From positions 1 to 36,126 of the forward strand of contig JAAZKT010000036.1 of assembly GCA_012799695.1 (NCBI GenBank): a stretch of 36,126 nucleotides of DNA, written 5' to 3'. Position 1 is the stretch's first letter. The number at the start of each line of letters is the position of its first letter. The stretch comes from Clostridiaceae bacterium. Lineage in GTDB: Bacteria; Bacillota; Clostridia; Saccharofermentanales; DTU023. A program made the position numbers and the translations under genes. Positions 1 through 4,686 of the stretch are shown piece after piece. The notes below the pieces were generated by a model. It saw only the letters and a list, made by a program, of their open reading frames with translations, ran no database searches and was not told the origin of the DNA.

Positions 1-1094
1 CCAAGCGTGGTTGCAAGACCTGCAACGGTAGGTGCGTGTCAAGTTCGTGCGCAGTGATCGACGTTGTTCGTGCCGATCGCCGCGCGTATAAATTTCTGGA
101 AAATGTAGTTGTCTTCGTTCGTACATCGAGCCGATGAAAGTCCCGCGAACGCATCCGCGCCGTGCTTCGCCTTGATCTCCCCGAAACGGGTCGCGATCAA
201 GCTGATCGCCTCATTCCACGTCGCGGGGACGAACTTACCGTCTTTTTTGATAAGAGGCGTCGTCAGCCGCTCCTCCGAGCTGATGAAGTCGGTGTGAAAG
301 CGACCCTTCACGCAGAGTTGCGTGCCGTTGATCGGCGCATCCTCACACGGCGTGACCCCGACCACGCGATTATTCTCGACGTCGACATTGAGATCGAACG
401 TGCAACCCGTCCCGCAGAACGGACACGTCGTGCGGACTTTCTTCAACTCCCACGGGCGATACCCGGCAAGCTCTTTGTTGGTAAGCGCGCCTGTCGGGCA
501 AATGGCAATACACTGGCCGCACATACGACAGAAGTCACGCGAAATGGGACGGTCGCCGGCCGTCGTCACCGTCGAGGTGAAACCGCGCCCGACGTGCTCG
601 AACACGTTTGAAACCTGGATTTCGCGGCAAACACGGACGCACTTGCCACACTTGATGCATTTCGATTGATCTCGCACCATGATGGGATTTTGGTCATCAA
701 GCGGCATGTTCGGAGGGTCGTACGGATACGAAGGTGTCGAGACGCCATACTCATAACAGAGTTTCTGCAGATCACATGCCCCGACTTTCTCGCATGTCAG
801 ACAGTCCATCGGATGGTTGCTGATCAGAAGATTCAACAGTTCGCGGCGAATCTCTCGAAGCTGCGGCGTGTTCGTCCGTACGACCATACCGTCTTCCGCC
901 AACCGCGAACATGAGGCGACCGGCGTCCTGCGCCCCTCAATCTCCACAAGGCAGAGACGACACCCGCCATAAGGTGTCAGCTCGGGGCTGTAGCAGAGAT
1001 TTGGAATATTGATGCCGACGAGCTTGGCCGCTTCCAGCAAATTGATCGGCTTCTCAAGTTCGAGATGTTTTCCGTCAATCGTGATGCGAATCAT
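1..1094 (-). CDS. fdhA: Formate dehydrogenase alpha subunit, selenocysteine-containing, partial (runs off the window edge); TGA at 41..39 read as Sec
   Basis: N-terminal 2Fe-2S motif (CYSPELTPYGGCRLCLVE), 4Fe-4S motifs (CIKCGKCVRVC, CRMCGQCIAICP), CPFCGTGC molybdopterin-domain motif. Translation continues in frame through TGA as ..NNVDHCART-U-HAPTVAGLATTLG, matching the VDxCARxU/CHxPxVAGL active site of FdhF-type enzymes. Confidence 0.92.
10..41 (-). promoter_or_regulatory. Bacterial SECIS-like element immediately 3' of the UGA codon
   Basis: Minus strand: TGA-CACGCACCTACC-GTTGCA-GGTCT-TGCAAC. Perfect 6-bp stem (10-15/21-26) with GGTCT apical loop, 12 nt after the UGA; resembles the E. coli fdhF SECIS (UGA..GGUUGCAGGUCUGCACC). 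Confidence 0.85.
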
Positions 1095-1295: not shown

Positions 1296-2690
1296 CTATG
1301 TCATGAGGTTGTATCGCCGTCCGCGAGCGAAACAAATCAAAGTGATGCCCGCCTCGCAAGCCAGTTGAACAGCTGACGCCGTTGTCGCCGAACGCGACAT
1401 AACGATGGGGATGTTGGCACATATGATTTTCCGCATGATCGTCGTCGTCACGCGACAACTCATCGCCAATCCCTCGCGGGACAAGTCACGCCGTTCCAAA
1501 AGTGCTCGACCGATCAGCTTATCGAGACACGCGTGGCGCGACGTGTCCTCGCAGACATCTGTCATCTCACGGCTTTCAAGGTCGAACAGGATCATGCTGT
1601 GCGTCCCGCCCGTCTCGCGAAAGAGCGATGTTTTTTCATCGAGAAGGCTCATGATGTCTCCAACGACGTCAAGAGGGGAGAGCGGCGAATGCCATTCTCT
1701 GTCCAACTTATCCTTTCGGGGTAAAGGAAAGTAGAACGGCTCCTTCTGGACAAGTAAGATCGGTCCGTTGAGCTCAACATGCGCGTCGAATGCATCCGCC
1801 CTGCCCTCGATCAGCTCAACATGAAACGATGACACCTCACTCGCCCCTTCGATCAGCCCCTGTGTATACAGCCAGCCGATCGCGAGATCGTGCCATCGGT
1901 CGGGGAGTGCGTGGAGTTCTGTCATGGGCACCCCGTTGACGATCAGAGAAAGACATCCTTCACGGACAACGTAGTCTTCACCGTTCACTGCACCCGCCGC
2001 CTCGGTGACGCGTGCCATAGAAATGGGTTGTACATACTCCGAGCGAAGAGACTTGGACGGCACAGCACCTCCACGCACATCGATCACGTCTACAAAGTCG
2101 TTTATGTTGTAAAACATGCGTAACTCGGATGATATGGCGCGCGCTTCGTCTTCCTTGACCCAGATAAAAGGTCTGTTCCGACAGAAAGACTGTAGCGATC
2201 GTTCGCCATTTTCAAGAGATCTCGCCATTGCGTCCGTCAACGCGACATTGTAAAGCGCGTTGAGCGGTTCAAGACATCCGGTGTCGCGGCGCATCATGCA
2301 GCCGGCGACTGAGTTGGCAGCGGCGCTCTCGAGTTTGCGTTTCATGAGGTTAATGTAATTAGGCTCAGGGTACGGCATATCACAGCCGATCACGTAGACG
2401 AAAAGGCTTTTCGCCTGAAGCAAACCGGCGTGAATGCCAGCCATGGGACCGCATCCGGGGAACACGTCTGATACAACTCGGACCTTTTTGTCACGATAAA
2501 GCTGCGGTCGGTCGGTGACGATGACAATGTCGTCGAACAGTTCACGGAACAGCTCGACCGTCCGCTCAATTAGCGGACGACCGTCAAACGACAGCGTTTG
2601 CTTGTCGAATCCCATACGACGACTCGCCCCGCCCGCGAGAATCACCGCCGTGGAAAACATGGGCGCTTCATTTATTGTATGACATGGCAT
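1296..2690 (-). CDS. Fusion protein: molybdenum cofactor guanylyltransferase (MobA-like) + FdhD-like sulfurtransferase
   Basis: N-terminal half AVILAGGASRRMGFDKQTL...FPGCGPMAGIHAGLL...VIGCDMPY (MobA); C-terminal half RETGGTHSMILFD..EDTSRHACLDKLIGRALL..IPIVMSRSATTASAVQLACEAGITLICFARGRRYNL (FdhD). Start placed at ATG 2690 (GGAG upstream); the track ORF extends to 2771. Confidence 0.85.
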   Translation of the reverse strand: MPCHTINEAPMFSTAVILAGGASRRMGFDKQTLSFDGRPLIERTVELFRELFDDIVIVTDRPQLYRDKKVRVVSDVFPGCGPMAGIHAGLLQAKSLFVYVIGCDMPYPEPNYINLMKRKLESAAANSVAGCMMRRDTGCLEPLNALYNVALTDAMARSLENGERSLQSFCRNRPFIWVKEDEARAISSELRMFYNINDFVDVIDVRGGAVPSKSLRSEYVQPISMARVTEAAGAVNGEDYVVREGCLSLIVNGVPMTELHALPDRWHDLAIGWLYTQGLIEGASEVSSFHVELIEGRADAFDAHVELNGPILLVQKEPFYFPLPRKDKLDREWHSPLSPLDVVGDIMSLLDEKTSLFRETGGTHSMILFDLESREMTDVCEDTSRHACLDKLIGRALLERRDLSREGLAMSCRVTTTIMRKIICANIPIVMSRSATTASAVQLACEAGITLICFARGRRYNLMT

Positions 2691-2757
2691 GTCGCATACT
2701 CCGTTTTTGTCATTTAAAACGTCAGATTTCTTCAACAAAGATAACTCCAATAAAATG

Positions 2758-4686
2758 CTACTCGAGTTCAAAAGCCCCTATGTGCAGCCGATAGTACTGC
2801 CCGCCCTCTTCAATGAGCTGCTCGTGTGTGCCGCGCTCAATGATGCACCCATCCTCCATGACCATGATGACATCGGCATCCCGAACAGTTGATAAACGGT
2901 GAGCGATGGCGAAGTTCGTCCTCCCGTGCATCAGCGCATCCATCCCTTGTTGAACAATCGATTCCGTCCGCGTGTCGATCGATGATGTCGCTTCATCGAG
3001 AATCATGACGGGCGGGTCGAGCACGGCGGCACGTGCAATCGCGATCAACTGCCTCTGACCTTGTGACAGACCGCTTCCGTCTCCCTCCAGCATCGTGTTG
3101 TAGCCGTGCGGCAGCATACGGATAAATCCGTCGGCATTGACGAGTTTCGCCGCCCTGATACATTCTTCATCCGTCGCATCAAGTTTCCCGTAGCGAATGT
3201 TATCCATGACAGTCCCGGTAAAAAGATGAATCTCCTGTAGAACGACACCGAGAGATTTTCGAAGATCAGCCTTTTTAATCTCTCTGATGTCGATGCCGTC
3301 GTAATGAATGGCCCCCTCGTCAATATCGTAAAAACGATTGAGCAAGTTCGTGATGGTCGTCTTGCCGGCGCCTGTCGCCCCGACAAGTGCCACTTTTTGC
3401 CCGGGTTTCGCATAGAGGTTAATGTCCCGCAGAACCGGTTTCCCCTGAACGTACGAGAAATTCACGTCATAAAAGCGAATGTCACCCTTGAGCTCCGTAT
3501 AAGTAAACGATCCGTCCTCTTGCGGTATTTTCCATGCCCAAACATCGGTACGATCGCAACACTCCGTGAGTTCGCCGTTCTCTTTCGTGGCGTACACGAG
3601 CGTAACGACACCGGTATCGTGCTCGCTCTCCTCACCCATCACTTCGAAAATGCGCGACGCACCTGCAAGCGCTTGGACGACCGTATTGAACTGCATCGAA
3701 ATCTGCCCGATCGGATTGACAAAGCTGCGCGACAGCGTGATGAACGAGATAATCGTACCGACCGTCATCGCCTCAGAACCCGTCAGACGCCAGTTCGGAA
3801 TGCCGAGGATACCGATCGCGCCACCGAGAATACCAATAAGCACATACAGAAGGAAGCCCATGCTGACGACGACCGGCATCGTGATCATCCCGTATTTGAG
3901 CGCTTGACTTGCGTTGTTAAAGAGCTCTTTCGTCCTTTCTCCAAAAGCTTGGATCGCTTTATTCTCGTAATTGAAAACCTTTACGACTTTCTGACCCTCG
4001 ATCATTTCCTCCACGTACGCATTTACATCGCCCATCGCGATTTGCTGACTCATAAAATACTTGGCACTCCGCCGCACAATCGCCTTGACGAGAACAAACA
4101 GCAAAACTGAAAACAACACGACAAACAGGGTCAAGCTGAGACTGAGATACATCATGGCGCCGAATGCCGCTAAGGTCGACAAGAGCGACGAAACCATCGA
4201 GGGGAAACTTTGCGAAATCGCGGCGCGTAACGTGTCGACGTCACTCGTGAAACGGCTCATGATGTCGCCGTGTGCATGTGTATCGAAATAGCGCACCGGC
4301 AACGTCTGAACGTGAGCGAAGAGGTTGTCGCGGATATTTCTCACGGTACTCTGCTCGACGGTCACCATGATGCGGTTATACACCCAAATTGTGAGAATAC
4401 CGATGCCGTATACGATTGACATAGCCACCACGATACGAATAATTCCCGAAAAATCACGACTCCCCTGCGCGATCATGGGCATAATTTCATCGTCAATCAA
4501 GGCACGCAGGAATAGAGACGTCGAGGCACGCGAGAGGGCGCTCAGTAGAATGCACAATAAAACAAGGACGAGTTTAAACCTGTGTGCACCCATTTGAGAC
4601 AGTAGTCGTCCGAACGTCCCGGGATTTATGTTGCGCTTTCCATGACCGCGATGATCTGTACGTTTGTCAGAAGGCTTATGAGGCAT
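2758..4686 (-). CDS. ABC transporter, fused permease/ATPase (multidrug/lipid exporter type)
   Basis: Transmembrane domain followed by Walker A GATGAGKTT, signature LSQGQRQ, Walker B VMILDEATSSID. Start placed at MPHKPSDK (4686), overlapping the stop of the upstream ABC gene. Confidence 0.9.
   Translation of the reverse strand: MPHKPSDKRTDHRGHGKRNINPGTFGRLLSQMGAHRFKLVLVLLCILLSALSRASTSLFLRALIDDEIMPMIAQGSRDFSGIIRIVVAMSIVYGIGILTIWVYNRIMVTVEQSTVRNIRDNLFAHVQTLPVRYFDTHAHGDIMSRFTSDVDTLRAAISQSFPSMVSSLLSTLAAFGAMMYLSLSLTLFVVLFSVLLFVLVKAIVRRSAKYFMSQQIAMGDVNAYVEEMIEGQKVVKVFNYENKAIQAFGERTKELFNNASQALKYGMITMPVVVSMGFLLYVLIGILGGAIGILGIPNWRLTGSEAMTVGTIISFITLSRSFVNPIGQISMQFNTVVQALAGASRIFEVMGEESEHDTGVVTLVYATKENGELTECCDRTDVWAWKIPQEDGSFTYTELKGDIRFYDVNFSYVQGKPVLRDINLYAKPGQKVALVGATGAGKTTITNLLNRFYDIDEGAIHYDGIDIREIKKADLRKSLGVVLQEIHLFTGTVMDNIRYGKLDATDEECIRAAKLVNADGFIRMLPHGYNTMLEGDGSGLSQGQRQLIAIARAAVLDPPVMILDEATSSIDTRTESIVQQGMDALMHGRTNFAIAHRLSTVRDADVIMVMEDGCIIERGTHEQLIEEGGQYYRLHIGAFELE

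Follow-up and report, generated by a model that had tools for sequence, protein, structure and literature searches.

The first 1094 nt of the window almost certainly represent the 5′ part of an fdhA gene that is cut by the contig end and encodes the alpha subunit of a formate dehydrogenase that is NAD-linked and contains molybdenum or tungsten, with selenocysteine (Sec) at residue 352. The window, a stretch of 36,126 nt, is the entire contig C78 of a draft genome (G000), which has 133 contigs totalling 1.71 Mb and is 92.7% complete. A minus-strand ORF of 351 aa occupies positions 1094 to 39, with an ATG start and a TGA stop at 41–39. The original prediction, made from the sequence of the window, interpreted this stop as the Sec codon of a formate dehydrogenase (FDH); its coordinates, 1–60, cover the TGA site, and the gene fragment itself extends over 1–1094. 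The features are as follows.

1–1094, minus strand: 5′ part of fdhA, codons 1–364 of about 915 (TIGR01973, TIGR01591 and Pfam domains; 915-aa orthologues)
39–41, minus strand: in-frame TGA, codon 352, at the active-site Sec/Cys position (57 TGA, 34 Cys and 5 Gly in the alignment; equivalent context to the TGA at codon 140 of Escherichia coli fdhF)
10–26, minus strand: predicted bacterial SECIS hairpin, stem GUUGCA/UGCAAC, loop GGUCU at 16–20 (fold, covariation, covariance model, sub-threshold Rfam match)
1296–2771, minus strand: fused MobA-FdhD gene, directly upstream of fdhA (Pfam and NCBIfam matches)

Reading through the TGA gives ...NNVDHCART-U-HAPTVAGLATTL, the last part comprising 12 codons, after which the contig edge is reached. 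Because the final two bases of the contig are GG, residue 13 after the TGA is Gly whatever the next base, and the read-through sequence is the one originally proposed. The post-TGA sequence in the genome itself amounts to 38 nt, and we infer the rest from orthologues. The contig cannot be extended leftwards, as had been suggested, because the window is the whole contig; the missing C-terminal part of approximately 563 codons was absent from all other contigs of the assembly, and a plasmid search by protein yielded only distant FDHs with <60% identity.

Conservation of the TGA codon and selection on the frame

To place the codon in context, we refer to an alignment of 96 rows from many phyla, which includes the window itself and some genomes more than once. 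The aligned codon is TGA in 57 rows, Cys in 34 and Gly in 5, so that TGA or Cys occupies the position in 91 of the 96. This Sec/Cys exchange confirmed that the 351-aa ORF ends exactly at the Sec/Cys site.

Three orthologues from the same genus, each 915 aa long and 93–96% identical to the fragment over the shared 364 aa, contain a single internal TGA at codon 352. Their next stop is at codon 916, leaving 563 more codons open; the expectation of roughly 500 or more further residues was therefore borne out in relatives, where the frame does not close quickly. The warning that automatic calling would split the gene also proved correct, as the orthologues come out as two ORFs of 351 and 547 aa. 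The dN and dS values were 0.024 and 0.695 before the TGA and 0.022 and 0.734 after it for G009–G001, 0.031 and 0.989 before and 0.035 and 0.879 after for G009–G004, and 0.015 and 0.952 before and 0.021 and 0.737 after for G001–G004. The resulting dN/dS ratio after the TGA, about 0.03–0.04, indicates strong purifying selection, which acts on both sides of the codon. Since dN and dS are equal on either side, the post-TGA part is translated and selected as protein in these orthologues.

These data bear directly on the possibility of a pseudogene, in which a nonsense mutation or a sequencing error would have produced the TGA. The contig stops just past the TGA and the frame cannot be traced further in its own genome, as such a reading would allow. 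However, 57 aligned rows, drawn from many phyla, share the TGA at this codon and most of the others have Cys, and purifying selection is equally strong after it in the three orthologues; we consider a pseudogene highly improbable.

A Sec-FDH 67% identical to the fragment, and nearer to it than most of those from Clostridia, was observed at locus L024, in a record titled Fretibacterium sp. (JAAYOR010000072.1), a Synergistota genus. This occurrence may reflect either horizontal transfer or a mis-binned contig.

A covarying hairpin downstream of the TGA

The perfect 6-bp stem with a GGTCT loop that had been noticed 12 nt after the TGA was confirmed. The hairpin GUUGCA-GGUCU-UGCAAC (26–10) begins 12 nt past the UGA and forms six Watson–Crick pairs, with its loop 18 nt from the UGA. 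A published model of bacterial SECIS elements (bSECIS) places the apical loop 16–37 nt from the UGA and requires a minimum free energy (MFE) of at most −7.5 kcal/mol (PMC13188914). The loop size, loop G, stem length (6 bp) and spacing (18 nt) of the hairpin all lie within the constraints of that model (PMC13188914), and its MFE was −6.6 kcal/mol against the limit of −7.5 (PMC13188914), calculated on the 41 nt that remain before the contig edge truncates the sequence. At the same length, the orthologous sequence of L022 gave an MFE of −10.3. In G009, whose hairpin is identical, windows of 50–60 nt fold into an alternative structure (MFE −12.7) and a window of 70 nt restores the hairpin. The peptide VAGLAT can be encoded by 6144 synonymous codings, 864 of which give six standard pairs (144 of these with the loop GGTCT); six Watson–Crick pairs arise in 384 of the 6144, including 64 with GGTCT. 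Taken by itself, the hairpin in this one sequence carries little weight, and it is the comparative evidence that makes it decisive.

For the RNA tests, identical hairpin sequences were collapsed, giving 48 distinct Sec-type sequences. Among these, pairing is present in 278 of 288 cells, compared with 230 ± 4.5 in shuffles that exchange codons for the same amino acid inside a column and leave the relatedness between sequences in place; none of 2000 shuffles reached 278. The hairpin as a mere by-product of conserved VAGL codons was ruled out for the Sec set by this amino-acid-preserving shuffle. The Cys-type control of 31 sequences showed no excess, 210 of 2000 shuffles reaching the observed pairing. 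In two pairs, both partners are synonymous wobble positions and both vary (32 sequences): one is U-A in 13, G-C in 11 and C-G in 8, and the other is C-G in 18, A-U in 12 and U-A in 1. A slid-partner control was also run for this wobble covariation. With the Cys and slid-partner controls and the compensatory wobble-site changes taken together, it appears very unlikely that the covariation arose by chance.

When a covariance model was trained on 22 sequences from other lineages, without this genus, its single hit in the 36-kb window was this hairpin (50.8 bits, E=8.5e-10). The Rfam family SECIS_3 (RF01989) gave a truncated match on the hairpin of 24.6 bits (E=0.0084), where the gathering score is 63.

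SECIS-like hairpins were also observed at four Cys-type FDH loci (L047, L038, L100 and L073), which scored 44–52 bits against the Sec-type model; that of L047 has all six pairs. The hairpins in some Cys FDH genes are possibly relics of a recent change from Sec to Cys.

The hairpin also informs the alternative that the TGA is a genuine stop, which separates a 351-aa protein from a downstream catalytic protein. Mechanical ORF calling does cut the orthologues into 351 and 547 aa, and short NuoG-like proteins of 314–319 aa occur in the genus and family. Yet the split would cut the molybdopterin domain at the Sec/Cys residue of its active site and would leave the conserved codons right after the TGA outside both ORFs. 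Selection at the RNA level on the hairpin likewise argues against termination, and the short subunits that stand alone come from another gene, similar only up to about residue 299. We therefore attach very little probability to two separate proteins and favour a single selenoprotein read through the TGA.

Selenocysteine machinery and genetic code

The search of the genome for sel genes, proposed as a check in the original prediction, recovered selA, selB and tRNA-Sec; the fourth gene sought, selD, was not found in the 92.7%-complete draft. The selA (540 bits, cut-off 267.9) and selB (375 bits, cut-off 242.25) genes are adjacent on contig C1. The tRNA-Sec gene lies on contig C40, with an Rfam score of 68.7 bits (gathering score 47), and was reported by ARAGORN as tRNA-SeC with anticodon TCA.

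In relatives the gene order is selD, yedE, a short ORF, selA, selB and an addB-like gene; G009 and G001 share this order, with selD just upstream of yedE. Base 1 of C1 corresponds to position 107 of TIGR04112, so the contig starts inside yedE, and C1 is collinear with G009 over 7.3 kb at 89% identity. The gene selD is therefore expected just past the contig edge. The failure to find selD could nevertheless be taken to mean that the gene is a relic of a Sec-FDH in a genome with incomplete Sec machinery, where UGA now terminates. Against this, the assembly is 92.7% complete and the selA–selB contig begins inside yedE, the gene that adjoins selD in G009 and G001, and we regard a relic as most improbable.

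The selD genes of genus and family relatives (L131–L150) have one in-frame TGA themselves, in the context AGG-U-G(A/S)KxGP, usually with a predicted hairpin after it. These TGA-bearing selD genes are a separate indication that the family uses Sec.

Reassignment of TGA to an ordinary amino acid has a negligible probability, because release factor RF2 (prfB) is present (509.7 bits, cut-off 370) and TGA ends selB and 5 of the 19 Pfam-supported ORFs of the window; no observation in favour of reassignment was found.

Enzyme type and neighbouring genes

The fragment matches the NuoG profile TIGR01973 in its N-terminal region (residues 4–351) and the Fdh-alpha profile TIGR01591 (222–363), and the TIGR01591 alignment continues across the TGA without interruption. 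Its Pfam domains are Fer2_4, NADH-G_4Fe-4S_3, Molybdop_Fe4S4 and Molybdopterin. The order within the protein is a NuoG-like start, comprising a [2Fe-2S] domain, an NADH-G region and [4Fe-4S] domains, followed by the Fdh-alpha molybdopterin domain. Against TIGR01591 the window fragment scored 185.7 bits, covering profile positions 1–140 only; the G009 orthologue (L021), the only orthologue scanned, scored 863.5 bits when read through, against a cut-off of 666.25. The match to TIGR01591 together with the NuoG-like N-terminus (Fer2_4, NADH-G_4Fe-4S_3) assigns the enzyme, by its domain content, to the NuoG-like, NAD-linked FdhA type and not to the stand-alone FdhF. The earlier description as an FdhF-type enzyme holds for the catalytic domain, which is FdhF-like, and not for the whole protein.

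The gene directly upstream encodes a fusion of 491 aa, with Pfam NTP_transf_3 at 42–193, FdhD-NarQ up to residue 489 and NCBIfam matches to MobA and FdhD. In L022 and L023, fdhA is immediately preceded by ORFs of similar length that have a MobA-like N-terminus, and one of similar size lies near fdhA in L173, with a ferritin-like gene in between. The MobA-FdhD fusion, which combines a molybdenum cofactor guanylyltransferase with an FDH sulfurtransferase, is likely to be the cofactor maturation partner of the enzyme.

Contig C3 of G000 (L171, 3561–6911) encodes a NuoE-like protein, a NuoF-like protein and a NuoG-like protein of 319 aa. The last of these resembles FDH residues 1–299 and ends before the catalytic domain. 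In the relative G017, NuoF-like and short NuoG-like genes are located immediately upstream of the Sec-fdhA. We speculate, with considerable doubt, that the selenoenzyme pairs with a separate electron module in the genus, made up of the NuoE–NuoF-like pair and the 319-aa NuoG-like protein, with two NuoG-like units in series and perhaps electron-bifurcating. The NuoE–NuoF and short NuoG-like proteins may join FdhA in one complex in this organism.

We also observed short dispersed repeat arrays, some of which lie beside fdhA in relatives (L021, 3280–3470; L023, 8950–9210). Their core is about AAGTCCAGAAATTCGATATTAACTGAAAAACTGCACAC, present in 2–5 copies with a period of about 49–73 bp and varying filler. 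In G000 the arrays are found on contigs C11, C20, C21, C39, C42, C64, C79, C83, C102, C114 and C127 (loci L180–L189). The 21-bp core has 38 matches in G000, 35–39 in the three closest relatives and 0–6 in other same-genus genomes; none was found in other genera or in the window, and a reversed-pattern control gave 0. Four array loci had no match in Rfam.

Proposed mechanism and significance

We propose that SelA would make the selenocysteyl-tRNA-Sec and that SelB would carry it while binding the hairpin, whose GGUCU loop lies 18 nt beyond the UGA. With SelB bound at the hairpin, the ribosome would insert Sec and would not terminate. Synthesis and sulfuration of the bis-MGD cofactor would fall to the MobA-FdhD fusion protein. 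In the FDH family, Sec ligates the Mo or W and a NuoG-like part transfers electrons to an NAD(H) module. In line with that family pattern, Sec at residue 352 would ligate the Mo or W of bis-MGD, and the NuoG-like N-terminus would hand electrons on to a module linked to NAD(H). From sequence, we infer the insertion of Sec, the metal, the electron acceptor and the direction of catalysis, whether formate oxidation or CO2 reduction.

The original prediction is supported in every essential point, with three corrections: the enzyme subtype, the fully paired stem and the fact that the missing part is unrecoverable from the assembly. Among bacterial selenoprotein families, FdhA has been described as the one with the widest distribution (PMC13188914), and the fdhA reported here is an ordinary Sec formate dehydrogenase, an unsurprising further instance of a well-known kind. 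The finding puts right the annotation of one gene, which mechanical calling divides into two ORFs, and it indicates that a draft genome from a poorly characterized group, whose closest named relatives are Clostridiaceae-labelled MAGs, uses selenocysteine. It adds an instance and not a principle.

Comparison with known systems

The closest counterparts in full-length extent are the NAD-linked FdhA proteins of PDB 6tg9 (chain A) and 9wxb (chain B), to which the G009 orthologue aligned over 2–892 and 2–902, respectively. The gene described here differs from these in having a Sec codon at the active site and a MobA-FdhD fusion gene upstream, and in being truncated by the contig end. E. coli FdhF (formate dehydrogenase H, PDB 1aa6) has a homologous catalytic domain and an equivalent UGA codon, but is without the NuoG-like N-terminal part.

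The hairpin had been described as close to the E. coli fdhF SECIS. The E. coli K-12 element shares the GGUCU loop and the distance of 18 nt from the UGA, and UUGCAGGUCU is common to both. The two are not identical, however: the E. coli element folds with a bulged U and with a lower stem that extends towards the UGA, whereas here the corresponding U is paired and a shorter stem of 6 bp is predicted. The SelB of E. coli may fail to recognize a hairpin that lacks the bulged U. A search for published work on Moorella-type FDH that contrasts SECIS stems carrying a bulged U with fully paired ones gave no usable result. Rfam SECIS_3 (RF01989) matches at the correct place and on the correct strand, although the match is truncated and below the gathering score.

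The FdhF of HDCR works in complex with a hydrogenase. It is the best PDB match (7qv7, chain S) to the catalytic part of the orthologue (residues 217–780), the match starting from residue 6 of its 743-residue chain; like E. coli FdhF, it is without the NuoG-like N-terminus that marks the enzyme described here.
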